From positions 33,566,501 through 33,630,500 of the forward strand of contig CM027377.1 of assembly GCA_015680905.1 (NCBI GenBank): a stretch of DNA of 64,000 bases, in the 5' to 3' direction. The position numbers and the translations under genes are program-made. This document shows, piece after piece, positions 31,839 through 58,133 of this stretch; positions within the stretch are counted from its first letter, which is position 1; every line of letters starts with the position of its first letter. The DNA is from Coptis chinensis (taxonomy: Eukaryota > Streptophyta > Magnoliopsida > Ranunculales > Ranunculaceae). The notes under the pieces are model-generated. The model was given only the letters and a program-made list of their open reading frames with translations, was not told the DNA's origin and ran no database searches.

Positions 31839-32199
31839 TTCTCAAAGAAAAAAAAAACAGTGAGTAAGGAATTATTGAGTTTTAGCACGTAGTAAGTCAA
31901 CTTCTAAAACACTGAAAAGTGCTAAGATCAAATGCCTGCCACGCCATTCTAAAACCCAAGGACCTCATTTTGCAACCGAAATGGAATTGCTCCAAGGGGA
32001 AACCCCCACGCTCATCCTTTCATATATTTCTTTTTTCTTATGTTTTCTTCGCTTTTTAAATTTCCCCATTTTTGCTCTTGATAAACATTCCGGTTTTGGT
32101 TGAACCGACAGTTCCAAATGCTAGGACACGGAAACTAGGCTACAACAATCACTAAGCTTACCGCGGAAACATTTGGTCCGCATTGTGCACGTTTCTTTT

Positions 32200-33110
32200 A
32201 TTTGGTGGACTTGGGGAAGCTTGCGGTGTTCCAAATTTTAAATATTTTTGCATGCTTCACATGTATGTAGACACATGGAATAAACTTGTTCAAGCTTTCA
32301 TGCTTCAATTTTACACTCGAAGAAAACAACTTAAATGCTTGAGAAAATTCAATTCTTTTCAATAAAATCCTCATGAATCCTTTTGGCGGAAGCATGGAGT
32401 CGCTTCTTGATCTTCTTTTAGAATGTCCTCATCACCAACTAGACAAAGCTGTCCTTGTTCGCTCATTCTTTAATGGACTTTCTCGATCATCAAAAGAAAC
32501 TCTAGATATAATGAACGGCGGTTGCTTCATGGACAAAGGAGCTATCAAGCATATACTTTTCTTGACAAACAAGCGAAAAAAGGTACACATTGGGGTAACA
32601 CCGATTCTTCTAGGTCATCTAAGGATAATGTTACAAAAAGCTACGCCTATTTTGAGGTAAAACCCGATCCCGAAGTTGAAAAACCGATAGAAACCCCTCA
32701 CTAAAAAGTAGATGCTCTTGTAGTTCAAGTAAACGATCAACTTCCACAACAGGCCATGAACGCGTTAACACTTCCCCATGTGTTCTATGTCTTAGTCCGC
32801 ACCATCTTGATGCTTATTGTCCCTTGTTACATGCTACCCCTACCCAAACACGGAGGAGGCATGTGCATTCAATATTCCTAATGCACCATGGAGACAACAT
32901 CCTAATTTCGCCATACCGAATAACCAACAAATGGCTCCTCCGTGTTTCGCAAATCCAATTGCTCAATTAATCAACAATTTTATTCCATACCGCCAAGGAA
33001 ATAATCAGCAATACCAACAAAGTCAAAATCAATTTCAAAGTAATTCAAATGCTAACTATCAAACAACCGCAGCCTTGTTCCAAATAATCCAAATTCGGCT
33101 ATAATCAACA
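32200..33110 (+). pseudogene. Gag of the second Athila-like element
   Basis: Gag-domain fragments are found in three frames: WNKLVQAFMLQFY (about 32280), LLDLLLECPHHQLDKAVLV and RSFFNGLSRSSKETLDIMNGG (32405-32520), and AYTFLDKQAKKG. A Gln/Asn-rich region (NNQQYQQSQNQFQ, about 33000-33040) follows. The cysteine-rich segment near 32790-32830 corresponds to the zinc knuckle but is frameshifted. The start codon and N-terminus cannot be defined. Confidence 0.72.
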
Positions 33111-33318
33111 ACTTCTCAAATAATCGTGAACTAGTAATCAAGGCACAACCTATGCCTCCTCGCTCTTTGATAGGACAAGTGAGATGTTTTTTCGCTTACA
33201 TGAACCAACAATCACAAATCCTAACGTCTATCCAACAATCAATTCAACAATTAGCACAAGACAAGAGCGTAAAGGCGTTTTCCAAGCGCTTCAACCCTAA
33301 GCCGGCCAAAACACGCCT

Positions 33319-34160
33319 TTGAACTCACCAATATACCCGGGTACAAGTACTCCAACCCAAGGTGAGGTGAATGCAATCACTACTCTTCGATCCGGGAAAA
33401 TCGTTGATAATCAAATCCGTATGCCGGATGATAAAACAAAGCGATACCGGAGGTTCCAAGGAACCGCTTTCGATAATGACCCTCAAATGGACACACCAAG
33501 TTCAACAACGCCACAATCTAAACAATTGGGAAACGAACAGGTGGACCCCTATGCCAAATTCCATATTAAGGCACCATTTCCCGCCCGTTTGGCAAAGAAT
33601 AAACCGGATGAAAACTTTGATGAAATTAGGGAAACCTTTAAAAATTTGACAATAAACTTACCTTTTCTCGATGCCCTAAAGCAATTACCAAAACATGCAA
33701 AATTTTTGAAAGACATGTGCACCACAAAAGAAGAACAAATGTGCCTCAACAGGCTTCCCATTGAACAATTTCCTTCCATCAATCGAATACAATGGTATAG
33801 TAAAATACAAGGACCCCGTAGACCAACAGTTCCATGCACATTAGGTGATAAGTATACGGGCCACGCATTACTAGACCTAGGAGCTAGTGTGAACTTACTT
33901 CCTTATTACTTATTCAAACAACTAGGTCTACATGAGCTTAAACCTACCACGATGACTTTACAATTAGCCGATTGATCCATTAAGCATCCGAAAGACATTG
34001 TGGAAAATGTCCTTGTAAAAGTCCAAGATTTTTTTTATCCCATAGATTTTGTCATTTTGGATACGGTTGCCTCCAGGACTCCATTCCTATCATATTAGGG
34101 CGCCCATTCCTCGCAGAATCGCTAATGCTCATAAACTGTAGGGATGGGTCCATGACCATG
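33319..34160 (+). pseudogene. Protease region of the second Athila-like element
   Basis: This is the longest open stretch of the element (218 codons to 33975). ITTLRSGKIVDNQ, a conserved pre-protease motif of Athila, is at about 33380. DALKQLPKHAKFLKDMCT is at about 33670-33720. The retropepsin core LLDLGASVNLLPYYLF, with its catalytic Asp kept, is at about 33870-33915. A stop at 33973 interrupts the flap region, which continues in shifted frames as VQDFFYPIDFVILD, with a second shift before IIRAPIPR-like sequence near 34090. Confidence 0.82.
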
Positions 34161-34619
34161 TCCTTCGGAAATCTTTCTCATCGAGGTTAATGTGTTCAAG
34201 TTGATGAAACAAATTCCGAGAATGATATTGATGGTGAGATTAACATGATTGACACCCTCGCATAAGAATATTTCACAAACTCTTTTCCCGAAGATGAAGT
34301 ACACCAATTCCATTCTTTTGGCGGTTCTGAATTTGATGTTGATGATTATTCAAAGGAGGTACATGAGTTTTTAGAATCAATACCACCAATTGACTCTACT
34401 ACCATCCTATCAAGCTTAACTTGGACGAACATAAATCTGTTTTCTCCGGAAGACGACTTTCCTCAAGAATCTTTAATACCCACTCCTCCCACCCCACTTA
34501 AAGCCTATTCCTTTGGACTTAAAATACGAACAATTAGATCCGGATGGTAGTCACCCAATTATCATATCATCACAATTGACTCCACCGATCGAATCACGCT
34601 TAATTAAGGTCATTCAAGA

Positions 34620-36000
34620 ACACCGCTTACGCTATTGATGGTCTCGATGACATTAAAGGCATTGACCCTACTGTGGTGCACTCATCGCGATACATCTTGA
34701 AGATAATGCCAAGACATCACGTGAACCGCAACGTCGCTAAAATCCAACCATGAAGGATGTGGTACGGGAAGAAATTTTAAGGTTACTTGATGCGTATTAT
34801 TTACCCCATCTCGATAGTGTTTGGGTAAGTCCACCATGTTGTTCCCAAGAAGTCCTGAATTACAGTTTGTGCTAAACGATAAAGATGAATGTATATCCGG
34901 CCAAGATTCCAAAGAAGTGGCGAATATGCATTGACTATCGAAAACTTAATGCAAATCAATCGTAAGGATCATTTTCCACTTCCATTCATTGATCGATGCT
35001 TTGAACGGTTAGCGGGTCATGCATTTTATCGTTTTCTTGATGGCTTTTCGTGATATTTTCAAATCGCCATAGATCCTGTGACCAAGAAAAACAACGCTCA
35101 CCCACTTTTGGTACTTTTGCATATAAAATGAATGCCATTTGGCCTTTGCAATGCACCCAAAGACATTCCAACGCTTGTATGCTTCATATCTTCGATATGG
35201 TTGAACGCTTTTATGGAAGTCTTCATGGACGATTTCTCATTATATGGTAATTCTTTTGATAACCGTTTATCAAATCTTGAAAAGGTTTTAGTACATTGTG
35301 AAGAGAAAAATCTCGCTCTTAATCGGGAAAAATGCTATTTTATGGTTACAAAAGGAATAGTACTAGGTCACATTGTTTCAAGGACGAATCGAAGTCGATA
35401 AAGCAAAGATTGAAAAAATTGCTTCCTTGCCTATACCAACTTCAGGTTAGAAATACGTGCATTTTTTAGACACGCAGGTTCTTTAGGAGATTTATTCAAG
35501 ATTTCTCAAAGGTTGCCCGACCTTTAACAAATCTCTTACTTAAAGATGCCGATTTGACTTCACTTTCGATTGCAAAACAAGCTTTTGAGACCTTAAAGTA
35601 CGCCTTACGACTACAGACTCGATAATTCAACCACCGATTGGTCTAAACCTTTTGAATTAATGTGTGACGCGAGTGACTACGCTTATTGAGTCGCCTTAGG
35701 GCAACGCCGAGAACAAGCCAATTGTCATTTACTATGCTAGTAAAACTCTTTAATGACGCCAACGTAACTATACCACCACCGAAAAAGAATTTCTAGCAGT
35801 TGTATATGCCCCGGATAAGTTTCGGCCCTTACCTAGTTGGTTCTTCTACAATAGTCTACACCGACCATGCGGCATTTCTATCTATTATCAAAGAAAGATG
35901 CCAAATGCAGGTTGATCCGATGGATCCTCCTTTGGCAAGAGTTTACTCTAGAAATTAGAGATAAAAAGGTTGGCGAACGAACGGTAGCACCATTTATCAC
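34620..36000 (+). pseudogene. RT and RNase H of the second Athila-like element
   Basis: Domain order can be followed only by changing frames. Visible blocks are RREPQR-type linker and PTMKDVVREEILRLLDA (about 34740-34790), PKKWRICIDYRKLNA (34910), FAYKMNAIW/MPFGLCNAPKDIPT (35120-35165), VFMDDFSLYGNSF (35220-35260, the catalytic YxDD-type box as FMDD), EEKNLALNREKCYFMVT (35300), RRFIQDFSKVARPLTNLLL (35490), FELMCDASDYA (35655, RNase H Asp) and STIVYTDHAAF (about 35850, RNase H Asp). Amino-acid blocks between indels remain close to the family. Confidence 0.82.
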
Positions 36001-36239
36001 TTACTCGTTAATGATGTCAATAATGAGTCCGAACCAATCATGCGATTCATTTCCGGATGAACATTTGTATTCCATTTTTTCATCTCCTTGGTATGCCGAT
36101 ATAGTAAACTACCTAGTTACCGAGGAGGTCCCTTCATCTTGGACTCGAACGGACCGAAAGAAGTTCTTATCCACTGTGGAAATTTTATTTTGGGATGATC
36201 CCTACCTTTTTAAGTATTGTTCGACTAACCGATATCGCC

Positions 36240-37110
36240 GTTGCATTCCGACCGGGAACATAATGACGGTTATCCTTTTGCCATGAACAATCTTGTGGTG
36301 GTCATTTCAGTGGGTAAGAAAACTGCAGCCAAGGTCCTACAATGTGGATTTTATTGGCCAACGCTGTTTAAAGATGCACACGAAGCATTGCAAAGCATGC
36401 AACCGTTGTCGAGCTAGGACGATTACTCAACGCAATATGATGCCCTTAAATCCAATTTTAATTGTAGAAATTTTTGATGTATGGGGATCGACTTTATGGG
36501 TTCTTTTCCAAATAGTCATGGCTTCCTATACATACTAGTAGCTGTTGACTATGTGTCAAAATGGATTGAAGCGTTGGCATGTTGTGTGAATGATCATAAA
36601 ATGGTCGTATTTTTCAGAAGGAACATATTTTCTCTCGATTTGGCGTTCCCAAAGCTATAATTAGTGATGGGGAAAACATTTCTGTAATAAAATTTTTGAA
36701 TCATTAGTAAAGAAATATGGAGTTACTCACAAAGTGGCAACTCCTCAGATCATCCCTCCACTCGAACCAGTGGCCAGAAGTCTCTAATAGAGAGATTAAA
36801 TCAATTTTAGAAAAGACAGCTTAATCCATCTAGAAAAGATCGGTCTCTTCGATTATCCGATGCCTTGTGGGCATATAGAACGCCTTTAAGACACTTATAG
36901 GCATGTCCCCTTACCGCCTCGCTTTTGGTAAACCTTGTCATCTTCCGCTGAACTCGAGCATCGTGGTTCTATGGGCTATCAAAAGCCTAAATTATAATAC
37001 CGATCTGCGGCGAAAGCCAAAATTGCGCTTAAATGAGATTGAAGAGATTCGAGTGATGCCTATGATCTCTCCGAAATCCTATAAAGCCAACATGAAAAAG
37101 AGTGCATGAT
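36240..37110 (+). pseudogene. Integrase of the second Athila-like element
   Basis: The zinc-binding region is seen as KVLQCGFYWPTLFKDAH (about 36330-36380), with the following Cys pair as CKACNRC (36390). The core is present in pieces: [15 protein letters not shown] (36480, first Asp), [11 protein letters not shown] (36550), [13 protein letters not shown] (36630-36665, second Asp), then KYGVTHKVATPQ and a damaged Glu block near 36770. MSPYRLAFGKPCHLP (36903-36945) and KPKLRLNEIEEIR (37015-37050) follow. Many 1-2 nt indels make it inactive as written. Confidence 0.82.
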
Positions 37111-38460
37111 AAGCACATATTAAGAAAAAGAATTCAAAATTGGTCAAAAGTTTTGTTGTACAACTCGAGATTACACATTTTTCCGGAAAACTAAAACTCG
37201 ATGGTCCGGTCCTTTTCACCGCCTCTCTTGCCAAATCTTATGGGCTATCTCTTTGAAAATGAAAACGATGACAGCGATTTCAAGTAAATGGCCAACGCCT
37301 TAAACATTATCATGAGTTATGCGTTCTCCGGATGTCGAAAAGACTCTTCTCAAAGATCCAAATAAAGACTAAAAGATTCATTTGTGTATTTTTTTTCGTG
37401 TTTAAAACAAGGAAAGTACACCATTAGGGTAGCCGGCCCTCTTCTATTTTTTTCTCTAAAACTCCTAGAGTGTGTGGTTGCAAGCGGAACCTTAGTCCAC
37501 AAAAACTCTATTTCGTGAACCGAGTATAAATGTCTTCGCTCATCGAGCAAACGCGTGCCTTTCCGGGTAAACAATGGGTACCAAAAATTTCCCAGCCTTC
37601 CTTCTCTTCCCTTTTCTATTCTCTTCCTCGCTAACTCCAGCTCATCATTTGGTGTAAATCTCACCCATCTCGAATAGGTAATGGTCGCAGTACTTTTTGC
37701 TCGAAAGTTTATGCGTCGCTGAAGGATGGGGTGGTGTATGAATTGTCAAACACCTTTCTCGTCCAAGTCTTGATTTACTATCCGATATGAGCCGGTATAA
37801 GGTATATTATTGTCCGACACCAGCTCAGATAAACTTCGCTTGTCGTCCCGCTGTTCCCCAGGTGGGATTCGCCTTTGAGGATCGGACGTTAAAAGACTCA
37901 CATTCGCCTTTGAGGATCTGACGTTAAAAGACTCCACATGTATATACTGCGTGTATTTTATTTTCACCCTTGCATTGTGCACAAAGAGAGTTGTGATGAA
38001 CAACATCGATAGTCCCACGCTCGCGCAAAAGCAATGGATTTCACCGTGCCAACCCCAAATAGTTTTCTATTTGATGACAGTTCAGGAAGGCGGTTTGAGG
38101 CTATACCATATGTACTAAGGGTAATATTATTATTAGACCATTGCACATTGGTCGGGATGGTACCGCCCTGAACCCTAGGCCCCCAAAACATAAAGGTTAA
38201 GCCCGCAAATTGGCCGGATTGGTTCTTGCCTTTGAGCCGACATGATGGCCCGATTTTATCAGAATGATTTTCTTCTTGTAGTCCGGTGTTGTTGTCACGC
38301 TCTTTGTATAATGACACATACATCTTCCCTTGTACATTGCCACGCTCATCTCCACTTGTACATTTGTATATAAAAAAAAAAAAATTAAAAATTAAAATTA
38401 AAATAAAAAAAAAAAAAAAAAAAAAAAAGGGTTGAAGGTGCCTTCTTCATATTCCAAAGG
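37111..38460. other. Region after integrase, no recognised gene
   Basis: Several - strand ORFs of 90-119 codons show no family I know. A 35-bp tandem duplication starts at 37867 and 37902 (ATTCGCCTTTGAGG). A long A-rich tract (38368-38430) of A runs broken by TT lies at the right, reminiscent of a poly(A) end. I take this as non-coding Athila sequence, possibly with a small unidentified insertion. Confidence 0.45.
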
Positions 38461-38715
38461 GATGACATTTTTAATGCCGATCATTTTAGCATCTCGATTC
38501 GTTTAATTTGGAATTGAAATGAATCGAAATTCGTGTTTGAAATTTTGGGACATAAGCAAAATTTCCGGAATTCATTTGGGCTTGGACCAAAAATTAGAAC
38601 CGACCCAAATCACGTGTCTGGTCACAAAACCCAAATGTTATCTCCATCGTAATTATTAAAAAAAAAAAACGGTAAGATATCCACAAACGGTCAGATATCC
38701 ACAAACGGTCAGATT

Positions 38716-38820
38716 TTTGCCTATAAATTCCGACACTCCTCATCACCCTTCACTCACCTCATTCTCTCACTATCCAAAGCTTAATCTTCACATATTATCT
38801 TTTCATTTCAAACAATGGAT
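38716..38820 (+). promoter_or_regulatory. Promoter-like leader in front of the env-position region
   Basis: CCTATAAATTCCGACAC resembles a TATA box with a C/T-rich leader about 90 bases long before an ATG (38816, MDPIEMIG). A second, similar arrangement, GCTATAAATCTCTTC then ATGGATCAACC, lies at 39496-39555 in front of the longer reading frame. In some Athila-type elements the env-position ORF is thought to be expressed separately, which would fit, but there is no direct evidence here. Confidence 0.3.
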
Positions 38821-39552
38821 CCGATCGAAATGATTGGAAAAGGAAATAACGGAATGGGTCACATCCAAATATTCGTGATAACAAGATTTTGTCATTATTC
38901 TCATCACGATCATGCATAACTTCATCCGAATATCTAGATCTATGTAACCTCCATATCTCTTTTCCCTTTGTCGCTTTGTATATTACTATGGTGTGTTAAA
39001 TAATTCTCAACCATTTGTGCGGGTTACGCATCAAATGGAGGAGCATCCTTTTAATAAATTGGGTATATTAGTTGTATTTTTACCTTATCATAAACATAAA
39101 ATAGTTATCAAAACCATAACAAATAAGAAAAAATCAATAACGCAATAAAATAAATCAAACTCAAATTATTGTTTTTTCGAGAAGATTGCACGACGCTACA
39201 CGCGCCTAACACTTGTCACGACGCAAGCCAATTATTCTATCTATCTTCTATTATTGAGGTATGATCATAAATTTTGAAATTACGTGTAGGTCTAACTGCC
39301 CTGTGAAACTTTCCTCCGTATTCTCTATCATTTTAAGACCTCATTAATTGTTTTTGGACACCTGACATGAAAAGACATACTATGGATACCCATAGTTGCT
39401 GTACATAATTAGGGATACCAACATCACATGTTTCACTTGTAAGTTGAGATCTAGATGCACTTGACATCCTGATTCGTACCAGATCCTATATTTGCTATAA
39501 ATCTCTTCATTTCAGCCATTCTCATTTCACAGTTTCTACACTATCCTTCCAA

Positions 39553-41810
39553 ATGGATCAACCAAGAAAGATAGTACCCGAGAAGAACTACTTGAAATTT
39601 TTTGATGATGGCCGATTTTCTCCTTTTTATGACACAGAAATTGTACGTCGAGGATGGATGCCTCTTCTATATCATCATGCATGCCTATTCCGGAGATTTG
39701 GTCTTGATGTTTTACCAATTTAGCGGACCTGAAAATGGAAAATTTGTTTCCATGCCTATGGACAACGCTTTGAATTAACTAAGGAAGTTATCTCCGACAT
39801 ACTTCAAATTCCAATGAATGACTCGGGTTCGATCTTTGAGTCCCCATTTAATTCATTAAAAAATTACTACGGGCCACCGTATCTCATGGCTTAAGTCGGA
39901 AATAAAAATCACGTTGAATTCTTGGCGCTTTTGAAACAAAATCAACGAAGCCGCGGCTCAACCGGTTGGGACACAATGTGGTGGGTACGCCACACCAATC
40001 AAGTCACCAAGCCTCAATTACACCTACTTTGGATTATGCGGAATCAAAGAGATGATTTTTGTATAATCCAACACCTCTTGAACGCAATCACCGAGAAGAA
40101 CAAAAAGGTTAGCACCTCACTTACTTTAGTCACGAAAATTATGATGCGTTAGTTATCCAGCCAGTTTCTCCATAAATACCTCTTCAAAGAGCATTTGTTA
40201 CAATACTTCACAAAGATCGCCGCGTGGGTTCTTGGGCCCGGATACTCCCGCGGATGAAATGGATGGCCAAAACTCAAACTCGCACATTTCTTTGATGAAA
40301 GTGCCATGCAGAACATTTTAATCCCATGGAAGGTATTCAAATTCTTCGTCAAGGAATGAGGGAACTCCACGACGTCAGAAATCATCATCAAAAGTCTTAT
40401 GGATTTCCAAGAACGTCAAGCGATGCATGATGTCGATCAAGAGGCACTATTGAAACTCACTCTCGGTCATTAGAAAATCACACTCTTCTAAATAGATAAT
40501 CAAACCACGATCTCTCGCAACCAGGGAACCCTTCAAATCCAAATTTTAGCCAACAAATTAATGAACCCTGAACAATTTGTCCACAATCTGCATTCCCATC
40601 ACCATCCTTATCATCATTTCAACCATAAAAATAATAATAATAATGGTAAAAAAAAAAAAGGTTGCTCGCTTTTACAAAACTTCAACTTTCCCCAAAATAA
40701 AATTATTATTATTAAGTATTTCATCGTGTGCGCCTTTAATTAAAATTTTTGTTATCTTTGTATCTTCTTTTGTAAGAAATGCCTACTAGGATTGTCATAT
40801 TTCAAGTTGTGATAATAACAATTTTAACGTGTTCTTTTTAAGCTTGATTACGGAGGTTTTATCTTCTTGCATACTCATTCCTCCATCCAAATAAAATTTT
40901 TTTTGGACATATTTCTTCTCATATCTTTCCCCATCACTCCACCCATCAAACATGGCATCTTCATCGAACGTAAAGATCTTCATCAAATAGGACACCTCCA
41001 AACTCATCCCCCTGAGCAATCATTTCAGCCATGATGGATTCCAATACTTATGGACTTCATTTCCGTGATTGCATTACTAACATCGGTGGTCTTCCTTGTT
41101 ATTCGGGCCTACCAAACTTATTCTCCAAGTTTGGCGCCTACTTTATGCTAATATGGAAGATACACCAAATTCAACGCCAGCCATGGTTTTTCTTAGACGG
41201 ATTCACAATCAAAGTTGGTGGCACAAACCATGTCTTTTTGAGGGCAACACTTGCCCCGACTTTTAGATCTTCCATATCACGAGTTTGCAACAACATGGCC
41301 ATACATTTATCACAACTCTACTTCCTTTTCATGGCCTTACTTTTCGCCAAAAGATACGGTGGCGGTCTTGAAATTAAAGATGAAGGAACTAAACTTGGCG
41401 GATGGCGGACATCACCATTCCCTTAGCCAAAGATGACCATGAACATGGGAAATGCGATGTTATTTGTCCTTCTTAACATCATGGAAATTGGCATTTTTCT
41501 ACCGCCAATGATGTCATGTGTAGTCTTCAATGTGCTTGCTTTCGAGGTCATACATTCTTTGATATCTTAAACTGTGTTATCTCCAATTTGAAACGAGCTC
41601 GTATTTTTTCGGATCAAGATATACTTTTACCCAGAATCGCCAATGCGAATTATGAAGACACATTTCCTAAGGCGGCTACTTTTCATGACCGGGTCAAAGT
41701 AGATTCTATGTACCCAACAAACAAGATAATTCGCTCATTAAGGTTTAGGCAATGGAAATGTCCCGCGCGATACTTTGAGACATGTTCGTTATCCAAGCCG
41801 ATGATAAGAT
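39553..41810 (+). pseudogene. Env-position ORF region of the second Athila-like element
   Basis: Starting at ATG 39553, MDQPRKIVPEKNYLKFFDDG and EIVRRGWMPLLYHHACLFR resemble the 'putative plant transposon protein' N-terminus (an Arg-Gly-Trp followed by a helix). It continues after two stops with LTKEVISDILQIPMN and YYGPPYLMA (39775-39890), then WDTMWWVRHTNQVTKPQLHL (39967-40030). A later part (41031-41812) holds YGLHFRDCITNIGG and DILNCVISNLKRARI but cannot be joined confidently. The function of this ORF class is unknown. Stops and frameshifts make it inactive. Confidence 0.5.
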
Positions 41811-43186
41811 GATGAAACATTTGAACTAATATGCGGGAACAAGAAATGGCCACCATTTGGGAATCACGTTATCTTTTGGCGTGATACTAAGAAATGCATT
41901 TCAATCAAGAAGAGGCGGACCTTCACCACATCCCGATGGTAAACTTGAGTAGGGAATTGTACATATATCTAACTGTATATAATTGTATATAGTGTGCTAT
42001 TGTTTTTCTTTTTTTTTTTTTTTTTTTCGATAATATATTATGTTACCAATAACTTTCTCATTTTCCGAACCAATCCGCTACCTTTGTTTACGGTTATCGG
42101 GTAATTCCTTTCTTTATCTATTTCTATTTTGAAGACTAATCATCACTCTATTTGGGAGTGATATATATATATATAAAAAAAAAAAAAAAAAAAAAAAAGC
42201 AACTTGTAGTCAGATATAGTTTATATTTTTCTTGTTAGTAAAATGTAATTAGTGACAATGTCTTGTTTCTTTTCAATGATGAAAATTATCTAGAAGTCTC
42301 ACATTAGCATTCCTAATTATGATTCGCTTTTAAGAAACTTAAGCCAATATCGACGCTGATAGCTTTTATATCTTTTATGAGTATTCATGCACCGAAGTAT
42401 CATTGATTGTACATGACAATAAGTTTCGAAACCACGGTTAGTCTACTTAAACTATCAATCCTGTGAGAATCTAACCAAAAGCCTCGATATGAGTGATTTG
42501 TGAGTAATGACAATAGGAGTAGTTTTTCCGAATAGAGAAAATCAATGATCGACTTTACTTGATCACCATCCATCAACCTAGGGCTAGAATTTAGGCATTC
42601 TTTGGATCGACATAGCTATAAATTATTACCTGTTACAAATTTTACCGCTAGTCACCTCCAATTAACCTTTTCATCAAACCTTTCACTTTCACCAAAAATT
42701 CCTACCCATATATTAACCCCAAATAAAAGAACCTACCCAAGTTGATGAGTATGAAAATAGGGCTTAAATGTAGAAAAATAAAAAGAAGACTTGTTCCAAA
42801 TAAAAGTTAGTTACCTGCTTCAAAAATAAAAATAAAAATAAATAAATAAGCAGGATCATGTTTCTTAAGCCTATAAAAAAAAAAATGAAATAAGGCTTAA
42901 GAGCAAGGTAGAAAAACTTCGGTAGGGCAGAAAAGAAAAACAAGGATTTCTCAAGTGTAAATATCTTGAAGACCTTATTCTCTTTTATACTTATCATTTT
43001 TGATCTCCACTTCGTCCACATTTGGTTATGGTGCTTGCCTATTAATAATGCTTTAATTGACACTTGGATTGTCATTATACCATAAAACCTTGAATTTTTG
43101 ATTTAATTTAGGTTGCTATGATTATAGTTATGATTAATACCCTCGTTTAAAGATTTGCGACAATTTCGTGGACTCGTCAGATTACC
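41811..43186 (+). other. Athila-type 3' untranslated region up to the MULE
   Basis: The region contains long T and A tracts (42004-42028, 42170-42198). It also has CTAGAAGTCTCACATTAGCA (about 42290) and TCGATATGAGTGATTTGTGAG (42483), which resemble the long 3' untranslated region of Athila elements. There is no coding region: the - strand ORF at 42764-43075 is a low-complexity Phe/Leu-rich translation of A-rich DNA. Confidence 0.5.
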
Positions 43187-44825: not shown

Positions 44826-47595
44826 ATCGAAGAAGGCGTGGTTGGGTCTTCGCCTACTAAAGCCCCCGCTCAAGGCACGCAAACATTAGTCGCCTCCTTA
44901 TATAGGAATGACTTTTACAAGTATTGACGAGGGCAAAGACTTATTACAAAGAGTATGGTCAACAAGAGGGATTTGAGACTTCGTGTTCGGACGACTTCTA
45001 AGCAACAAAATCCGGTGGATTTGGTTAGTGGTTGTTTACTTGGTTTGCTCCGTGAAGGGTTAAGACTCCTAAGAGATGAAGTCCGATCAAAGAAATACAT
45101 CAACTATCCGTGTGGTTGCCAAGCTAGAATTAAATATTAAGAAAAGAATGCATGAAGAGATATATGAGGTCGGTGTTGCTCATAATGACCATAGTCACGG
45201 TCCGGTGACCCCATCGAAGAGAATTTGCATGAAAACTAACAAACATATGCCCGGCGGCGAAGTGCTTGACCGAGATATTTAGTGATAACAGTTTATCCGC
45301 TGGAAAGTGGCATCTGTTTTCCATGGAGAGGAAGTTGGGTTTACCGCGGAAAGATTGTTGGAACCATTATTATGGTTTGACCGGAAAAGATGCCTAAAGA
45401 AGGTGATGCAAAATAACCCGTCTTTTACAATATTTTATCTTGAGGAAGAGTCCGAGGGATCCCCGGTTCTATTACGCCATTGATTTAGATGAAAATGGAA
45501 TTGCGGTGAACTTTTTTCGGGTTCATGGGAGGTCTCGATGCCATATGAATATTTCGAGATGTTGTGTCTTTTGATACCACATATCGTACCAATGCATATT
45601 CCATGCCTTTTTGCCCTTTTACCGAGTCAACCATTATTATCGATCGATTCAGTTTGGTTGCGCATTGTTGCTTGATGAGACACGAAGATACATTCATATG
45701 GCTATTTAAGGCTGGCTTGCGACCATGGGTGGTCGTCATATTCCGCAATCATCAACCACGGGATAGAAGATGGCAGCGACCATTGCCAAAGTGTTTCCTA
45801 ATACTGCGTCATCGTTCTTGTCTTTGGCATATTATGCAGAAATTCAAGAGAAGATGTCATTTACCAAATTTGAGACATTGGTAAATCGAGTTGAAGAACA
45901 CTATTTCTTTTAAGTATAGGATTGTTGATTTTGAGAGAAGATGGTGTACAATCATTGAGAAGTATGAGTTGTCGAAAATCCTTGGTTGACGAGAGATATA
46001 TTCAATCTCGGGGAGAAATGGGTTCCTTGTTATCTCGGTGGCACCTTTTTCTTTGGTATGCACCCGGTAGGTCGAAGTGAATCGATGAATGCTCATTATG
46101 ACCCGGTTTGTCAATTCGGCGACTACGCTTATGCAGTTTGTACATGGTAATGAGAAGTCTTTGACTTTGCTTGCTAGGAAAGAAAGAGATTCCGATTACC
46201 GCATACCGAAAGCATAGTTCACGGATTGTTACTTAACGATGCTTTCATCCTTATGCATGCCGAAAGGTCTATCGATCTCAATATTCAATAAATTTAAAGA
46301 GCAACTAGAAAAGGCAAAGATGGAGTACAAAATTGATGGGGAACAAATTGACGGTATGGAACCGGAAGCTACATGGTGAAATGGAGACCATTTGAAGAAT
46401 TCAGTTTGGAGAGTGAGTTTAGATAGAGGAACCTTAGAGGAGAGCTACTTGAATGCAAGTACTTTCAGTTTATGGGTTTGCTTTGTGGTCATATCTTAAA
46501 GGTTTTATGCGATCTGAGATTGAAGAGATTCAAACCATTTTAGATTGACGCGGTGGATGCAAAAAGTCTAACACTTATAGGCGGAGTTTGATCTTTGGAT
46601 TTGTGGTGGGAATGTCTCAAATGAACCTTTGAGAGTGGCTCATTCTATCAAGGTTGCTTCTCAAGTGGCTTTACGATCGTCGCGCGATACTTTTGAGGGT
46701 TATTCATATTTTATTGAAAAGATTGGTGAAATGGCTATTGAAATTTCAAAGTTTAATGAGACTTCCTACAAAGGAGACCTTGAAGTTCGCGAGCCTCGAT
46801 TCTGAGCCCTCCAAATTGCAAAAACCTCCAATTCGCGAGCCTCGGTTCGCGAGCCTTGATACCTTCCGGTTAATACATCACAGGTTTTTATTTGAATGTT
46901 TAATTTGATATAAATTTAGTGTTTAATTGATTGTTTAATTTGATATAAATATTTATTTTAATTAGGTCTTTATTTCAGCTATTGATTTTGAATCCCAACA
47001 TTTCTCAAACAAAAGGGAGGGGAAGAAGAAAGGATAGATGGAAATCCCCAAAGAGATAGCCCTAAACAATTCAGGAAGAAAGTGTCACGGATGTGACAGA
47101 TTGCTAACCATGACTTCGAGAAATTGTCCGGAGAAAAATATCGTAATCACATCGATTGTAAGTATAGATTTATTCAAAACTCTTTGATTCTAAATGTTCA
47201 CTAGTTCTAATGATATTTTTATCTGCGCGTCATGGACTTCATTGATGTCTGGACTTGTTAATAGTGGTTTAGATATGGCAGCCTTGTTAGAGTTTTATCA
47301 AGTGTTGTTAAGTTGAACTGCTATAATCGGGTTGTGTTCCATTGCATCATTCCATTGGATAGTATCTAATGTTGTCCGCTAGCTAGGCTCTAGATATGAA
47401 ACATCATAATGATAGACCGGTGCTTTTTTTGATAACTTCTTTCTCCTTTTTTATTTTCAAATTTTAATATTGCTGGTTTAGGTTACATTTGGGGAGTTTA
47501 ATTAGACTGAGTTCTAATCTCATTGATATTGTAGAAAAGAGAAGTATGGCTCAAGGAGAAATGGAGAATCACGGAGGCAAAGCTTTGCTTTAGGT
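44801..47595 (+). pseudogene. FAR1/FHY3-type MULE transposase (frameshifted as written)
   Basis: The probable start is the ATG at 44801 (METKETSINIEEG). The N-terminal FAR1 DNA-binding domain is seen as TYYKEYG, SVRTTSKQQ, NYPCGCQARIK and HNDHSHGPVTPSK (44940-45230). The MULE transposase domain follows: VVSFDTTYRTNAYSMPF (about 45560-45612, first catalytic Asp), DTFIWLFKAWL, AATIAKVFPNT and HRSCLWHIMQKF (45690-45850). The SWIM zinc finger is ECKYFQFMGLLCGHILKV (about 46455-46505). After an intron ending near TTTCAG (46978), an exon gives KGRGRRKDRWKSPK and the zinc knuckle CHGCDRLLTMTSRNC. A last short exon ends at about 47592. It would cut and paste the element. Frames break every 20-100 bases, mostly by 1-2 nt deletions. 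Confidence 0.85.
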
Positions 47596-48239
47596 AAAAA
47601 TCTGCCTACTCATCATTTCGTTTCCAGCCCCTCGACTTTGCATCAATCGATCTTGATCTTTTCATCATTCTCTGCCGGTTATGTTTCTTATCTTGCTCTG
47701 AGTTCCACAAGATGCCACGGTATCACTGCCACCTTGACTATGCACCATTGAAGAAAGTCGCCAAATTGAGTTATTAGCTATAACGGAGAGAATTGTCGTG
47801 AAAAGAGCGAGAGAAAAGCGAAGTGTTGAAAGAAGGTGGAGAAGTTGAAGAGAGCTGAAACTTGGGTGAAAGGCTTGAACAAGCCAAACTAGGTCTTGGG
47901 CGGGCTATACTTGTTGCTAATTCATTACGATGTGCTTAAATGTTGTAATACTGAACAATAATATTTGGGATTGCATAAAGCATTTTGATGTGCTTATTAT
48001 AAATGTTCTTGTTGTTACCTGGCGTGCCCACTTGCAATTTTGTTCCGTAAGTTGATATGATGTATTGATCACGGATACTATACCACCATTATAATGCCAA
48101 CGTTTGTCAACAACAAATTTACCTCAACTCATATGATCATCAATGAACATCAACACAAACAAACCAAACTGATAAATTGCCAAAACATCAACATCAACGA
48201 TATGGACTTAGTACGGCGATATCGTTTGGATTTGAATTT
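47596..48239. other. 3' flank of the transposase gene
   Basis: AT-rich sequence without a convincing gene. AATAATATTTGGG and similar AATAA signals near 47960 could serve polyadenylation of the transposase transcript. The segment runs directly into the palindromic array. Confidence 0.4.
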
Positions 48240-49440
48240 GGATAAAAAAAATGGCGTGTCTGTTTGGACTTTGTCCCAAACGGCATGGCCACACCGTTTG
48301 GCCTTAGTACCAAACGGTGTGGCCATGCCGTTTGGGACAAGTCCAAAATCTGCACTCTATTTTTTAAGTTCAAAGTCAAAACGATTTTTTGCAAGAAAGT
48401 TTGGACTTTGTCCCAAGCGGCATGGCCACCGTTTGTCCTTAGTACCAAGCGGTTGTTTTGCCATGCCGTTTGGGGACAAAGTCCAAACGGACTTTGTCCC
48501 CAATGTCCACACCGGGGCAGGACAAAAAGTCCAAACGGACACACCATTTTTGCAAGTTCAAAGTCAAGCGGCATGGCCACACCGTTTGTCCTTAGTACCA
48601 AGCGGTGTGGCCATGCGTTTGAGACTAAACTTGCAAAAAAGTGGCCATGCGTTTAGGACAAACTTGCAAAAAAACCATTGTTTGGGACTTTGTCCCCAAA
48701 GCGGCATTTTTAATTTTGGAGTCCGTTTGGACTTTTGTCCCAAACGGCATGGCCAAACCGTTTGGTACTAAGGACAAAACGGTGTGGCCATGCCGTTTGG
48801 GACAAAGTCCAAACGGTTTGGACTTTTTTGCAACATTCAAAGCCATGCCGTTTGGGACAAAGTCCAAACAGACAAACCATTTTTTTTTTTGCAAGTTCAA
48901 AGTCAAAGTCAGCGGCATGGCCACACCGTTTGGACTTTGTCCCAAACGGCATGGCCACACCGTTTGTCCTTAGTACCAAACGGTGTGGCCATGCCGTTTG
49001 GGACAAAGTCCAAACGGTGTGGCCATGCCGTTTGGACAAAGTCCAAACAGACACGCCTTTTTTTTTTGCAAGTTCAAAGTCAAGCGGCGCCCGCGGCCCG
49101 TTTGTCCTTAGTCTCAAGCGGCATGGCCACACCGTTTGGTACTAAGGACAAGCGGTGTGGCCATGCCGCTGGACTTTGAACTTGCAAAAAATGGTATCTG
49201 TTTGGACTTTGTCCCCAACGGCATGGCCAACCGTTTGGACTTTGTCCAAAACGGCTGGCCACACCGTTTGGAACTAAAGGCCAAGCGGTGTTTTGCCATG
49301 CCGTTTTGGACAAAGTCCAAGCGGTGCAGCCATGCCGTTTGGGACAAAGTCCAAACGAACCGCCATTTTTTCTTATGCAAAGTTCGAAGTCCAAAGCGGA
49401 AACCGCCATACCGCCATGCCGTTTTCTAATGCAAGTTCGG
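48240..49440. repeat. 34-bp palindromic tandem array in both orientations
   Basis: The unit is about 34 bp and combines two palindromes, GGACAAAGTCC and CCAAACGG-(10 bases)-CCGTTTGG with the core TGGCCA. Units occur in both orientations, switching several times, and are separated in places by TTTTTTTTGCAAGTTCAAAG. Since the unit has almost no stop codon in any frame, ORFs of 60-225 codons exist on both strands (such as 48094-48771); they are by-products of the repeat. Its G+C content is far above that of the surroundings. It lies between the 3' ends of two convergent genes of the MULE. Confidence 0.9.
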
Positions 49441-50033
49441 TCCAAATGCGGACCACGACGCCATGGCCTTAAAGTTCAATTGCTAGATTACTACATTCTT
49501 TGTAAGCATTTCAACCGATCAAGCAATGTATACTAAATAAGCCTGGAGTGAATATACTAAATAAGCACGGGTGAGAATGCCAAGCTTTCCGGATCATAAT
49601 TTCAAGATGGTGACTGTTATTATGCTATCAAGGTCTTACTCTTTATTCCTTGCCAATCTTATTAATGAATTCATCACATGAACAAGGTTGATAATGCCCC
49701 GAAATCCACTATACATCAGCTGTCACTCTGTCGGTTTAATCACCCGTTGTGGGCAGAAAGCATATATGGAAACATACATCCACGTAGAAATAATTCAGTT
49801 ATAAGACCATCGGGCCCATGCGGGATTACAAAAGCGAAAGGAAGAATTGTACTTCCATTATTTCAAAGTAAAACATATGAGTCCACAAAACTGAAGTAAA
49901 AGGCGGATTATCATATTTTTACATATTGATCAAGAACATAAAACCATATGGAGGTATCGAAGTTACAAATGTCTTAACCACTTTTCTTTGGTAATTTACA
50001 CGAAAGATAATCTTTGACAAAACCGAAAATAAC
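49441..50033. other. Spacer between the palindromic array and the PMD gene 3' end
   Basis: No gene recognised. A short + strand ORF (49678-49899) has no family match. The segment probably holds the 3' untranslated region of the - strand gene. Confidence 0.4.
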
Positions 50034-53000
50034 AGACTTACCCGCGACCTCTATCACCTGACCTTTTCCCTACCGACTACGGCTTTCATCATCATATTAT
50101 TATCACCGTCGAGAGCACCCCGATGCAGTGCGGCGATCGCCATCAATTTCATCACCGTCCTCCATTTAGAGCTACAAAACAAAGATAACATAAAATTCAA
50201 ATTTCAAATGCAAAATCATGATTTCTAAGATTTTCATATATATGCCATTGTCAAAAATATCAAACTCATAGTTTGGGAAATTACTCTAGCTCATGAGAAT
50301 TGGCGGTTTCACATTGAGTAGACTAACTACATACTCTAGACCCCTAGCTAAATACATTAAGTAATTGTATTTGCATCATGAGAAACACCAAGCATTACAT
50401 GACCTAATCAAGACTTAACACTATCATATTTAAGTGTATTGTGTATGACAATCTATGCAATCCTATGCTCAACATTTTCAAGAGCAAAAATGAAGCAATT
50501 GGCGGATACTAGGGAAGTGACTATATGGACACCTACATATAGGACAATGAGACTCTCCCATTCCACTCATTGCCCAGATGGACACACCAAAACAAGATAT
50601 ATGGCCACAAGCTGCAATCCTATGCTCAACACACCAAAAACAAGATATATGGCCACTAAACCCTAAACCCTAAACTAACCAAACTCAACATACCTAAATC
50701 CTATGCTCCTTCCGCGATATCGTGTTGATGAACTTGCACCGGTCAAATTGTATGCCTCCATGAACTCGTTAAATTGCATCCTCACGGAATCGCCAGTCCC
50801 ACCCAATTCTGCGGGCCTTGATTGAGCAAGCGAGAAATTTCATCGACGACGGGTCTTTGTCAAAATTAAAACACAAAACTACATTAGTATATACATTTAC
50901 ATTTATAAAATACCAAAACAAAACAAAACAAAACAAAATTAACGTTGTAAGATATTAACTCACCAGATTATGATATGGAAGACTCGTAGGGAGTAGTGAC
51001 TAAGATGATCGGGGTTTATCATTCTCATATGACTATTATTTTAATTACCAACTCATGTATCTACTAACACACTCCCATGGATAAGGCGGAATGGGTCCGC
51101 GTTGTTCAAGTTGAATCAAGTGATTACGCGATTACTCCGATGGGAAGACCTTGATATTAAATTTTACATCATACCCGCGTCCGAAGTAGTTCAGCGTCGA
51201 GCTCTTTGGTTTTGGGGGATCTCGAGGGTACAAACCATATGACCCAATGACCCTAAACCACCAACCAACATTGCTTTCGACATTATCAAGAAAGCATAAA
51301 ATCCCTCGAAAAATGCTATTTCATCCACCGGCCGTGTAGCTCGGACTTCAACATAGGGATACCATTCAACTGTCAAATAGCATATGATCGAGGAAATTAA
51401 TCATTAATCACATACTAATAATATTAATTAATAAATAAAACTATTTACATACAAAAATACTTACATCGGTACAAGTCATATTATCAATGGTGGCTCGGGT
51501 ATACTTCAATCATTTTGTTGTGCTAGCATAAAAGATCCGAAAGGCGAGTACCTATTAGCCGCGGGACATGCTCAAATGATAGTCCTCATTTGGGTATGGC
51601 CCTAACACTGGAAGTACTCATAAATCCATGCCTACATTAATATAGACACCGAAGTTAATATTGTAATAGATAGATAAAATTGACATTGAAAAGAAAAACA
51701 AAAACTAATACGTAGGAGAGTGAAATAGCACGAAACACCCTTCACCTTGGCACTTGTGGCAGTCCCAAGACCCACAATACAAGTAAGCCCGCCAAGTCGC
51801 ACCCCACGCGTAGTCTCGATCTCGGCAAATTTCAAAAGCGATCTCGGATAACAAACGGAATCTGCCGGTTCGGGCGATGTCGATAAAAGGCGGTACATCC
51901 AAAGAAAAAATAACGGATAAGCTCTCACAAAGAAATGCACCTCTTTTTGGGTTGGCGCCTTCTTCACAACAACCCCATTTTCATCACGTAAATCTTCATC
52001 TCTTACCTTCCCGAAAGAACTGCTTCATCAAGAAATCCATCCTAACTTTGGAAGTGAACTTATTGGATTTCATCTCCGCGATCTATCTTATCCATGGGTA
52101 TGCCAAGATTTTTGTGGAGAAGTCTTTTTGTCTGTTCAAGGTCAAATCGGTGTCCCCGATCACCTGCTTTGCCTCGATTTAACTCCTAAGAGTTGGGAAA
52201 CATCATCCAACGTGATTGTCATCTCGCCCACGGCATATGAAGCGTGTTGGTCTCACGGATGCCACCTCTCCACAAACGCGAGACCAACCACGGGATCGAT
52301 GCTGTATACACCTAAGACCCGAGCACATAAGCGGTCCTTTGAAGCTCCACGTGAAAAGTAGAGCGGTCGAACACTCTCCTCGATATCCCATTGTACCAAC
52401 TTGTTGAGGTGCCCATGGCGCTTCACACCCTCGCTCCGCCTAAAACAACAAAAAACTTAGTATTAATGTATGCACAAGTTTAAGTAATACAAAATTTAAA
52501 TACTAATAGACACTATATGATAATATTACCTGCCCTCCCAAACATCGCGAGCTACGTTACCTTTGCATAGTCATACAATAGATGTGACACCGCGAGGGCC
52601 ACCTCCATAAACACCTCTCGGAACTCCAAGTCATTGTTGGACTTTCTCACAATATTCACTGGAGGTGCAGTCACGAGGGAACTTCGGGGACTTCCTCGTC
52701 ATCATCCTCCTCCTCCTCCTCATCCTCCTCGTCCTCCTCCTCCTCCTCCGTCATCAACACCCCCTTCGCGTCATCTTCTTCATCATCACCTACAGCTACA
52801 CTCTTCCCACGATCCATATTTACATCATCTACATCTACATCTTCATCTTCATCTAAATCTAAATCTAAATCTACATCTACATCTACATCTAAATCTACAT
52901 CACTCATAATTGTTTGTTTTCTTCTCTTTTGATTTCCTAACTCTACACCACTTACTACATTCTTGGGATCATCCGCTTTCCGATCCCTCTCTGATTTGAT

Positions 53001-53138
53001 GCGAGGTAGTTGTTGCCCTCTTTCTCTTTTTTCTCGGGCTCCTCATGACCGAACTACTACTCCCCCCACCTAACAACTTCTTAGCACCGTGAAAACACTT
53101 TTGCTGCATTCTTCACATTCATTCTTTGTTCGAGGCAT
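50034..53138 (-). pseudogene. Plant-mobile-domain (PMD) gene of the MULE
   Basis: The start is the ATG at 53138 (MPRTKNECEEC). Exon 1 runs to about 52600 with two in-frame stops and an extremely acidic stretch (52907-52671: Asp-Val/Asp-Leu repeats, then Glu/Asp runs). The PMD core follows after an intron: DIEESVRPLYFSRGASKDRL, SIDPVVGLAFVERW and GEMTITLDDVSQLLGV (52390-52160), the last being the PMD signature. LLSEIAFEICRDRDYAWGA (51850) and VEWYPYVEVRATRPVDE (51370-51320) continue it. A donor TAG|GTATG at 50694/50693 and an acceptor TTGTAG at 50172 suggest a last exon to about 50034. PMD proteins occur in plant transposons and in the host proteins MAIN/MAIL1. The role in MULEs is unknown. 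Confidence 0.72.
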
Positions 53139-53429
53139 TGCTACAAAATAAATAGGAGTTAAAAATAAGACATTCAACTAATTCAAGCATGCGAAATCGA
53201 CTAGGAAAACTTTGCGAGAACGACTCATGTAAAACTTTAAAGCCGCCATGGAGATAATGAACATCGAAAAAAGAAGCACATTTGTAAAACGAAAATAGTC
53301 GACGCGGCATAAGAGAAAGACAATATAAGACATGTGTGATTCGGAAAACTAGCAAGTCAGGTAACCTCTTTTAGTTTGTACGCGTGTGAGTTGAAATTTT
53401 ACAACATCTAAACTTAAAAGAATTTCTTA

Positions 53430-55740
53430 GGCCATAAGCTTTTATTAAGGGGTGGGACTTTTTCAAAGCCTTTAAAGCTTTGTGGAATACTGCTGCTAGC
53501 AATCAAGGTATGTCATCAAGCATCAATAAACCAACTTTGAAAGCCTGCGGCGAGTTCAGTTATTTATTTGAAAGCCTGCCTAATCACTTGAGATGCTGGG
53601 GGTGCCCTTAGAATAGAATTCTAAACCAGCGTGGCGCTTTTGATCAATAGGAAGAGGATCACTCCGCCATGGTGAACGTAACTCTTGGCAACTTCCATCT
53701 GCCGTAGCAAAACGCCTGGCTTAAGCCCGACCTTTAGGAAGGCCTATATGAATGAGGCTAAATGCAGGAGCTTACTCTCTCTCTTTCTTTATGGTTTAGA
53801 GAGTCTTGCGCATACTATATCTTTTATACTTATTTTCGCATTTCCTATTGTGAGTAGTGATTCATTTCCTGCAATATAGTTAAGCTCCTTCCCTTGTTAG
53901 AGTTGGAGGCTGCGAGCTCGGCCTAAGTCTGTAAGCTCTCGAAACTAAGTCGCGTTCTCTCTACCCCTAAGGGCGTTTAAGCTCTATCGACCTAAAGAAG
54001 TTAGTGCTTTAGAGAGTTATGAGAAAACTTCTCATCTCAAGACCTATAAGTATAAGCATAGTTCTCCATTCTCCATTAGTTAGTAGCTTAGTTTTATCTT
54101 AAGCTCTCAAGAGCTTTCTACGTCTGCTTAGCCCCTTCCCTTTTACCACCTGCTCAACTAGGGAAGCGTCCCGGCATGGGTTACATACAGATCGGTCGAT
54201 TATATAAGATATAAGATCCCCTGCATCAGTTCACAGTCACGCTTCACGACGAAAAGAGTGATTGTGGGGTCATCCTTTAAGCTGAAAAGTTTACCCAGCC
54301 CTTCTCCGGGCTTTTAAGATTTTGAAGTCATCGTGGATGGCACGAGTTGAGGAGTAGAATAGGGTAGGCGTTGAAGGCTCTCTTTAGTAAAATCCCTTTT
54401 TTGTGAAATAATAGGTTCTCCCCTATTTACTTTTATCGGGCAAGCTACTACTTTCTCGTTTCACTCCTCTTTATACACGAAAGCAAGAGAAATTGAGTCT
54501 ATAAAGAATCGAGAGCTTGATGACCTAAAACCGGGGAGCTTCTTTCCCTAACCAAAAGAAGATCGAGGTATCTGACTTAGCATCAACGGGAAGAACGACA
54601 CAAGATAACCTAACAGGTTTAACGTTTAACAGTCTGCCTTGCTTGAATAGGACTCATAATAACAACAAAAAGCTTACTCCAACTAAACACAAGAATGACA
54701 AAGCCAAAGCCTGTTCGCTCACTTTACTCGGTCTGACGGCTAAACCTTGCTTTAAGACAACTCACAGAAGCACAACTAAAAAAGAATGTGCCTGAAGGCA
54801 CTCTTTCGGATATTGCACTTTTGAACACATATATCCTTATATGTATATATAACGGTAAAAGTGCCTCTAAGGATAAAGTCTATCGGAATCCCTAAACCGA
54901 TAGAGCTTAGACAAATTATGCTTGTTTAGATCACGGTAGCTTCTGAGCAAAAGCGTAGCCTTGAGTCATTAGGTAACTAGCCCACGTCAACAACATGACC
55001 AACCTGGAAACCGACTTCTCCTTTTTTCAATAAATAAATAAGAAAAACAACAACGAGGTTGGAGAGACCTATCGAAAGAGCACTTTCTCACTTATTTAGT
55101 TAGAGAAGTCTTGGAATAAGCCTCAACCGAGTAAATAACGGCAGCGGTGGAAGGCAAGGAGCGAGATGTAATCTCTTTCCCTTGCTTTCGAAGGGGAGTG
55201 AAGTGAGAGGAGACAAACAAACCATTTTTATTCCAGCCGAAAGACTAGTAAAAGGAAGGATCCAGAATGTCATATATCTCGGGGAGCTAGATCGGTTCCC
55301 GATAAACAAGTAAGAATTGCCTCAACCAAAATTGATGGAATTGGACCTAAAAAGCCATTCAGGTTAGTTATCGATTAGGTATCGATTAGGAACATCAAGA
55401 TAAAAGAGTTAACTAAGTATCAGATCGATCAAATGGAACAAATGATAGGTCAAGATCATGTTGTTCATTGGGAATTGAAGAGGGGAGAACGAGCAGACAT
55501 CGAACGATTCATTTCTATTTCTCGTTATCGTGGAATTCGTCATCAAGATGGATCGCCCTTACGTGGTCAACGAACTCATACTAATGCACCTCAGGTTTCA
55601 CTATCGAGCTATCAAAAGAAAAAGTAGATCATACTCTTAGACATTACGCTCCTCCCTCTAGATAGAGGAGGGACCTCGCTTCACTCCCCTTAGAGAACTG
55701 CAAGCTAGATAGAGAAGTGAAGTTTGTGCTTGTATTTATT
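53430..55740. other. Mitochondrial-type DNA (NUMT) inside the MULE
   Basis: The base composition and style change abruptly: little TA-richness, CTTCACTCCCCTT- and GAGGGACCTCGC-type motifs usual in plant mitochondrial spacers, and normal CAG/CTG frequency. The firm anchor is the rps13 remnant at 55267-55627. Upstream sequence (from about 53430) encodes nothing I recognise and would be mitochondrial intergenic DNA. Borders are estimated from the change of style, so their position may be off by 100-200 bases. Confidence 0.6.
55267..55627 (+). pseudogene. rps13: Mitochondrial ribosomal protein S13 remnant
   Basis: S13 binds the head of the small ribosomal subunit. From ATG 55267 the N-terminus agrees with plant mitochondrial S13 only if one extra G in the run at about 55281-55286 is ignored; then VRIASTKIDGIGPKK is readable. 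A second frame problem lies near 55365-55395, where TATCGATTAGG is duplicated. From 55394 the frame is open through IKIKELTKYQIDQMEQMIGQ, VHWELKRGERADIERFISIS and GIRHQDGSPLRGQRTHTNA. After this the usual Arg-rich C-terminus is replaced by PQVSLSSYQKKK and a stop at 55625-55627. It is a pseudogene here; the altered tail could already have existed in the mitochondrial source. Confidence 0.88.
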
Positions 55741-56306
55741 TCCTATTACACCATTCTAAATGGTGTCACAAAGAGCTTGTCTAACTTCACTTCTCTGATT
55801 ATCAACTGATTTATCCTTCCTGAGTTTGGTGAATGCAAAACTTCGATATCATTTGATGTGGATCTTCTACGGAACGTATCTATATATATCTGCTATACTT
55901 GCGAAAATATAAATTTTGTTATACTCGAAATCTTGTGAAACTTGTGTTAGATGGATGACCACTAGCTAGGTTCAGCTTTATTTTGGTTTTCATGCATTCT
56001 TAACTTCATTTTAAGAATGGGTGATATCAACGAAATGGGTGATATCAACGAGGAAAGTACAAAATGGGTGTCTAGAATTCAAAAGAATTGAATCAAACAT
56101 AACATTATATATATATAAAAAAAGATAGAAAGATAGAGCAGGTTACGAAACGAGCTATATATTTATTTTGAATCAAGCAAAAGCGATTACTCGGTCGATA
56201 TGGCCTCAAATAAAAATCTAGTGATATCAACGGAGAGACAATAAGTTCATAACTTCATTGTTTGATTTAATGATTTATTTATTTTGAACTTGGATAAACA
56301 TAACAT
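55741..56306. other. Segment between the mitochondrial DNA and the right TIR
   Basis: AT-rich, with the phrase GGGTGATATCAACGA repeated at about 56020 and 56037. There is no coding region. It may be the original MULE interior adjoining the TIR. Confidence 0.4.
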
Positions 56307-57106
56307 TGATGTCTATGTCTCCATTTCTATAAATCGAAAAAAATTAAAAATATAAATAACTTAAAACGAGAAAAATAACAATGTACATAAACGATTGTAA
56401 ATAACTTAAACATCGAAACTCGACAGAGTTCAAAACTCACGACGAGTTAACCAAATATGCTACTTCACGAACTCGTCGAGTTCAAAACTCTGACAAATTC
56501 AAAACTCGACAGAATTTAGAACTCGACCGAACTCGACAGAGTTCAAAACTCTGACGAAATTCAAAACTCGGCGGCGAATTTAGAACTCGACGAAATTGAA
56601 ACTCGACCAATTTAGAACTTCGGCGGAATTCACGAACTCGGCGACTTCACCGAACTTCGACGAGAATTTAGAACTCGACGAAATTCACGAACTTCGGCCG
56701 AGTTCAAAACTCGACGAAATTCGAACTCGACGAATTTAGAACTCGATAGACTTCAAAACTCGGCAAATTCACCGAACTTTCGACGGAGTTCAAAACTCGG
56801 CAATTCAAAACTCGACAAATTCACCGAACTCGATGGAATTTAGAACTCGGCGAGTTCAAAAACTCGACGAATTCAAAACTCGACAGAGTTCACGAACTTC
56901 GACCACCGAATTCACGACAAAATTTAGAACTCGACGAATTCAAAACTTCGACAGAGTTCACGAACTCGGCGAAATTTAGAACTCGACAGAATTCAAAACT
57001 CGGCGAAATTCACCGAACTCGACGAGAATTTAGAACTCGACAATTCACGAACTCGGCGAGTTCAAAACTCGACAATTCACCGAACTCGGCGAGTTCATCA
57101 AATATG
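56307..57106 (-). repeat. Right TIR of the MULE
   Basis: Inverted, shorter partner of the left TIR. The unique inner part is 56307-56414, and the array 56415-57106 has units GAGTTCAAAACTCTGACA and GAATTTAGAACTCGACA. As in the left arm, full-length joints (ACTCTGACAGAGTTC type) are mixed with shortened ones (AACTCGAC). It ends near CATCAAATATGCTAACACC, equivalent to the GTAGCATATTCGGT segment of the left arm. Confidence 0.85.

Positions 57107-58055: not shown

Positions 58056-58133
<78 letters not shown>

Follow-up and report, generated by a model that had tools for sequence, protein, structure and literature searches.

Why should long parts of a transposon-rich block in a plant genome be so poor in CAG and CTG while CG remains plentiful? 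The block lies between 32.1 and 57.1 kb of a 64,000-nucleotide stretch of Coptis chinensis DNA (G000:C1:33566501-33630500, hereafter the window), taken from an assembly of 936 Mb in 116 contigs, and it holds a Gypsy-like retroelement remnant and a Mutator-like element (MULE). The initial annotation of this DNA offered two explanations, a base-calling artefact at methylated CHG sites (H being A, C or T) and an unknown mutational process. Comparison of the letters with those of related copies suggests, with a probability of about nine in ten, that the assembly has too few of these triplets because its consensus is wrong at methylated CAG and CTG that a nanopore base-caller misread. In all likelihood, the depletion thus reflects a fault of the assembly rather than new biology.

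Composition was counted by region and in 1-kb bins, with CWG denoting CAG plus CTG and GWC the mirror-image control triplets; observed/expected (o/e) values are zero-order unless stated. The depletion is confirmed as present in the letters of the assembly. CWG fell to 0.34 (z -10.3) at 32101-43100 and to 0.35 (z -9.5) at 44760-53300, and neither stretch was depleted in CG, while CCG/CGG was in excess in both (Table 1). In the flanks, CWG was 0.85 (1-10000), 0.59 (10001-32000) and 0.85 (57107-64000), and CG was 0.68, 0.54 and 0.68, respectively. The block itself is uneven: the left terminal array of the MULE (43101-44759) has a normal CWG of 1.17 with CG at 1.57, and the right array (56300-57106) has CWG at 0.43 with CG at 2.48. 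The seven hand counts of CAG plus CTG that first drew attention to the block were exact (1, 0, 1 and 2 inside; 5, 8 and 8 outside), and CG in the four depleted samples was 12, 15, 8 and 13, within the claimed 8-15. Of the near-absence over about 20 kb that they had suggested, a strong depletion is borne out for the two stretches but not for the left array, which is normal, nor for a captured organelle segment, which is intermediate. The flanks had been named beforehand as the decisive comparison; both ends are clearly richer, the region from 10 to 32 kb only partly so. This region is also CWG-poor (one 1-kb bin at 0.07), but there CG is low too.

Ordinary decay of methylated transposons, with C turning to T at methylated CHG, would likewise remove CWG from transposons, and such a pattern does appear at 10-32 kb and in a Gypsy element that served as control. 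As the initial annotation rightly remarked, methylated transposons normally lose CG by deamination; decay would thus lose CG and make TAG/CTA, and the block shows neither. Its CG stays at 0.90-0.94, and TAG/CTA stands at 0.66-0.68 (flanks 0.79-1.02), or at 1.10-1.13 in a first-order model (flanks 0.97-1.10). Since TAG/CTA is not raised, deamination is therefore not the main cause.

The direction of change was read from a relative of the Gypsy remnant found in a random sample of the genome (L021, C2:10.0 Mb), which shares 86% identity over 32574-37360 and has a CWG of 0.87, compared with 0.31 in the window. The window retains 16 of the 92 CWG of this relative; of the others, 20 have C or G in the middle, 13 have lost the middle base, 26 are changed in complex ways, 11 appear as C>T or G>A and six are otherwise altered. 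In the reverse direction, 16 of the 35 CWG of the window are kept in the relative, two have C or G in the middle, and no middle base is lost. The control triplets fared differently, with 69 of 106 GWC of the relative kept in the window and 12 showing middle changes or deletions. A second piece of the same relative (37545-38618, 77% identity) follows the trend (CWG 3/18 kept and eight with a C/G middle; GWC 16/26 kept), as does a MULE-related piece upstream of the window compared over 50656-51981 (CWG 2/28 kept, GWC 22/32 kept). A further match, L026, was set aside as too diverged (69% identity; CWG 26/27 and GWC 30/36 variable). Although the 11 C>T or G>A changes are what decay at methylated CHG predicts, middle-base changes outnumber them 33 to 11 at the CWG of the relative, and we regard such decay as a scarcely conceivable source of the depletion.

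The initial annotation had placed the loss in the middle base of CTG and CAG. Such loss is the most frequent alteration in the terminal arrays of the MULE, where AACTCG/CGAGTT outnumbers AACTCTG/CAGAGTT by 35 to 6 on the right and equals it on the left (Table 1), and these arrays alone cannot show which form is original. The element bodies more often show CAG turned to CGG, CTG turned to CCG, or garbling over several bases. Context counts taken from BLAST pieces of the arrays were rejected because overlapping pieces inflate them.

The allele pattern emerged when the MULE body of the window (44759-48200) was aligned with five other copies, the best plus-strand matches among those listed. All six copies share long identical runs (52 invariant runs of at least 20 columns, the longest 86), and their differences are packed into tight, indel-rich clusters, with 790 variable columns falling into 157 clusters compared with a permuted mean of 302. 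Gaps occur in 456 of the 790 columns, and transitions lead by 185 to 149. Four to six alleles are present in 64 of the 157 clusters, which hold 586 of the variable columns, and 46 of these 64 contain a CWG in some copy. For example, where one copy has TACTGGAGTC, others have ACCGAGTC, CTTTGAGTC or CTTGGAGTC, and TATCAGTCGA corresponds to TATCGGTCGA or TATCGATCGA. Among 1295 comparisons of CWG, 572 were the same, 240 had an insertion, 212 were complex, 121 had the middle turned to C/G, 89 were C>T or G>A and 18 were exact middle deletions. Intact sites cluster within one copy, as none of 2000 permutations reached the observed covariance. The number of CWG also goes with the state of the reading frames: the most CWG-rich copy (L030, 64 CWG) has an open frame of 370 amino acids, and the other five (32-45 CWG) reach at most 138.

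The alignment used for comparison comprised the Gypsy element at 2.0-4.5 kb and five of the at least 45 matches to it. Here the differences are scattered, with 408 variable columns in 185 clusters (202 when permuted), gaps in 45 columns, transitions leading by 269 to 94, and a CWG o/e of 0.86-0.94 in all six copies. Two repeat pairs within the window proved weak controls: at 14.7-20.1 kb, the two members disagree at 20% of columns (CWG 19/25, GWC 24/41 variable), and at 22.3-25.0 kb at 8%.

These alignments bear on the second explanation, a real mutational process acting on methylated CWG. If 5-methylcytosine were excised on both strands and the repair went wrong, for instance, the middle base would be altered or removed, and the letters do fit a change aimed at CWG in silenced transposons, with the middle turned to C/G or lost. 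However, runs of up to 86 columns are identical in the very copies in which many CWG clusters have four to six readings, so such a process would need to have struck nearly every CWG independently in each copy, and almost nothing else. Clean and garbled patches moreover alternate within one copy, and the Gypsy family of the same window lacks the pattern. Mutation could not easily leave such runs intact beside such divergent readings of CAG and CTG; misreading could. A mutational origin, which the shared runs and multi-allelic CWG clusters do not support, thus appears highly improbable. There is an equally slim chance that methylated CAG/CTG in silenced plant transposons would undergo a real and very fast change or loss of the middle base, making CG and remodelling young elements over a few transposition rounds.

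Poor consensus in repeats, from collapsed or thinly covered copies or from homopolymer slips and independent of methylation, is a further candidate. Homopolymer indels are indeed the largest class of single-column differences in the MULE alignment (71/228), and at 86 of the 157 clusters none of the six copies has a CWG. Such indels are also typical of nanopore reads and in this respect count for misreading too. CWG is hit far more than its mirror image, however, and base composition is shifted in exactly that context. CWG is touched by 71 of the 157 clusters where random placement expects 28.7 (sd 5.2), and GWC by 38 where it expects 27.0 (sd 4.8). Likewise, 93 of 101 CWG sites are variable but only 50 of 96 GWC, counting every site present in at least one copy and thus including CWG, and likewise GWC, created by garbling. 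We therefore hold generally poor consensus to be very unlikely as the explanation.

Several observations weigh against misreading at methylated CWG. The 86 clusters without CWG count here as well, and 64 of the 157 touch CCG/CGG. The MULE body has few deletions of exactly the middle base (the 18 of 1295 above), in part because the alignment of garbled sites is uncertain. A test of the artefact by exact one-base deletions likewise gave low counts at CWG (0-5 for each pair and direction), which initially seemed contrary; the test was dropped, given that the aligner spreads garbled sites. The patch correlation is weak, dropping from 0.14 to 0.08 within 200 bp and vanishing beyond that distance. 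CWG sites are often variable in the control Gypsy too (84/97; GWC 64/92), which C-to-T change at methylated sites would lead one to expect. What sets the MULE apart from the control is thus how the copies differ, and not CWG variability alone. In the repeat pair at 22.3-25.0 kb, 10 of 27 CWG and 5 of 26 GWC are variable. Finally, the control Gypsy is expected to be methylated as well, yet it is clean, which polishing may explain.

Taken together, the clusters, the direction of change, the allele pattern, the patchiness and the link with broken frames lend good support to a base-calling artefact at methylated CHG sites, as the initial annotation had proposed. We infer methylation as its cause, nanopore sequencing as the platform and polishing as the origin of the clean patches. 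In silenced transposons, CAG and CTG would be methylated by the plant at the C of either strand. A nanopore base-caller familiar with 5-methylcytosine chiefly where a G follows would then misread both triplets, on either strand, and write CG, with the middle A or T turned to C or G, the middle base dropped, or the neighbourhood garbled. Because a CWG is lost with each of these outcomes and a CG remains with most of them, CG and CCG/CGG would rise as CWG falls. Short-read polishing may then have corrected the sequence only in places, over one or two hundred bases at a time.

Related errors are described in bacteria. A study of Klebsiella places about 70% of the consensus errors made by the then-current base-callers of Oxford Nanopore Technologies in Dcm-methylated CCAGG/CCTGG (PMC6591954). 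The likeness lies in a 5-methylcytosine beside A/T and G and in a base-caller untrained on it, whereas that system is bacterial with one fixed motif and the window is affected at any CAG/CTG in plant transposons, patchily and often with C/G in the middle. A report on Listeria describes modification-mediated errors at GCAGC and GCTGG that largely disappear after DNA amplification, which strips the marks (PMC10687267); these too are centred on motifs containing CAG/CTG, but the report, again bacterial, counts mostly mismatches, whereas indels and garbled clusters are common in the window. In plants, according to a study of chromomethylases, heterochromatic CHG methylation peaks at CAG/CTG, with CCG 20-50% lower (PMC5221884). 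This would explain 5-methylcytosine at heterochromatic CAG/CTG and hence the presumed cause here, not the error itself. A CHG-type error in plant assemblies was not described in the literature searched, which comprised titles and the starts of abstracts and covered subscription journals thinly.

The MULE itself spans about 43.2-57.1 kb, with related, inverted arrays at both ends and a piece of a PF10551 domain between them. Its long inverted terminal repeats (43.2-44.8 and 56.3-57.1 kb) have arms that are 77-78% complementary; a target-site duplication of 9-11 bp is expected for such elements. The left end (44000-45500) used as a query gave at least 153 matches, many of them pieces of one copy, with the best 40 of 1012 candidates scored. 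Inside the element, 48215-49400 is a dense array of units of about 34 bp in both orientations (ATGGCCACACCGTTTGGAC... and its complement), which recurs, variously arranged, in the five fetched copies. Immediately upstream of the window, 20 kb of sequence (L009, L012) contain more pieces related to the same MULE, of which L012:6092-7417 matches window 51981-50656 at 89% and those in L009 are shorter; such elements are thus nested here repeatedly. To the left, 32.3-37.4 kb resembles a Gypsy-type retroelement, with presumably gag-like sequence and an aspartyl-protease match that is weak and below its cut-off. A search of 31-58 kb for RNA families in Rfam found none.

The captured segment (PF00416, E 1.6e-17; S13 chains in PDB also match) had been described as mitochondrial and as normal although it lies inside the MULE. 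Together with both of its sides, it matches at least nine other genomic places at 90-93% identity, with the best 40 of 788 candidates scored; the MULE thus captured the segment, which was then copied along with it. At many more places the match is confined to the flanking sequence, on one side or on both. One MULE subfamily carries the segment, and many relatives match the flanking sides only. In the window, its CWG is about 0.62-0.67 and its CG 0.80. In two of the at least nine sister copies, CWG is 0.42 in both and CG 0.92 and 0.97; the segment is hence no exception, at 0.62 in the window and 0.42 in these sisters. The window reads TATCAGATC where both sisters read TATCGGATC, and ATTCAGGTT where one of them reads ATTCGGGTT. 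Across the three copies, 74 differing CWG comparisons include 14 changes of CAG to CGG, six middle deletions and seven C>T or G>A.

Table 1 Features of the window discussed in the text, with o/e values or supporting evidence
Feature	Coordinates	Strand	Remarks
Depleted stretch 1, with the Gypsy-like remnant at 32.3-37.4 kb and other sequence	32101..43100		CWG 0.34, CG 0.94, CCG/CGG 1.24
MULE left terminal array	43181..44720	+	36 intact AACTCTG/CAGAGTT, 36 AACTCG/CGAGTT; patches alternate
Depleted stretch 2: MULE body	44759..53300		CWG 0.35, CG 0.90, CCG/CGG 1.32, counted over 44760-53300
Open piece of MULE transposase domain	45549..45884	+	PF10551, E 5.6e-10, above its cut-off
Captured organelle segment, part of ribosomal protein S13	53713..55720	+	Depletion milder than in the two sister copies
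MULE right terminal array, in opposite orientation to the left one	56411..57110	-	6 intact and 35 middle-deleted units
Control Gypsy element	2000..4500	+	CWG o/e 0.86

The signature also occurs outside the window. In 16 samples of 10 kb from the genome, giving 160 one-kb bins, nine bins combined CWG below 0.5 with CG above 0.9, five of them in L013 and the rest in L014, L018 and L020, so that it is not unique to the block at 32-57 kb. Across the sampled bins, CWG and CG were weakly and negatively correlated (Spearman -0.23). The problem is patchy and reaches beyond this window. In L013:5001-10000 (C1:5,005,000-5,009,999), all five one-kb bins carry the signature and the reading frames, which we take to be retroelement-like, are broken.

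Other repeats occupy the left part of the window. A large inverted repeat at 22265-25027 has arms of about 1.2 kb that are 92-95% complementary around a centre of 440 bases. Two alike stretches lie within 14748-20132 (14.7-17.1 and 17.6-20.1 kb; segments 91-98% alike), and pieces of them also occur just upstream of the window in L009. The region 10377-12661 contains open frames that presumably belong to a hAT-type transposase.

A CWG o/e below about 0.5 together with a CG o/e above about 0.9 offers a cheap flag for the error. Should reads confirm the letters instead, a new mutational process would be at hand. If misreading at methylated CWG is the cause, plant assemblies may contain kilobases of transposon sequence in which most CAG and CTG are wrong. 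Such sequence would carry false CG sites, by which methylation maps and probe design may be misled, and the error would break the frames of transposases and retroelements and inflate divergence and thereby the apparent age of these elements.

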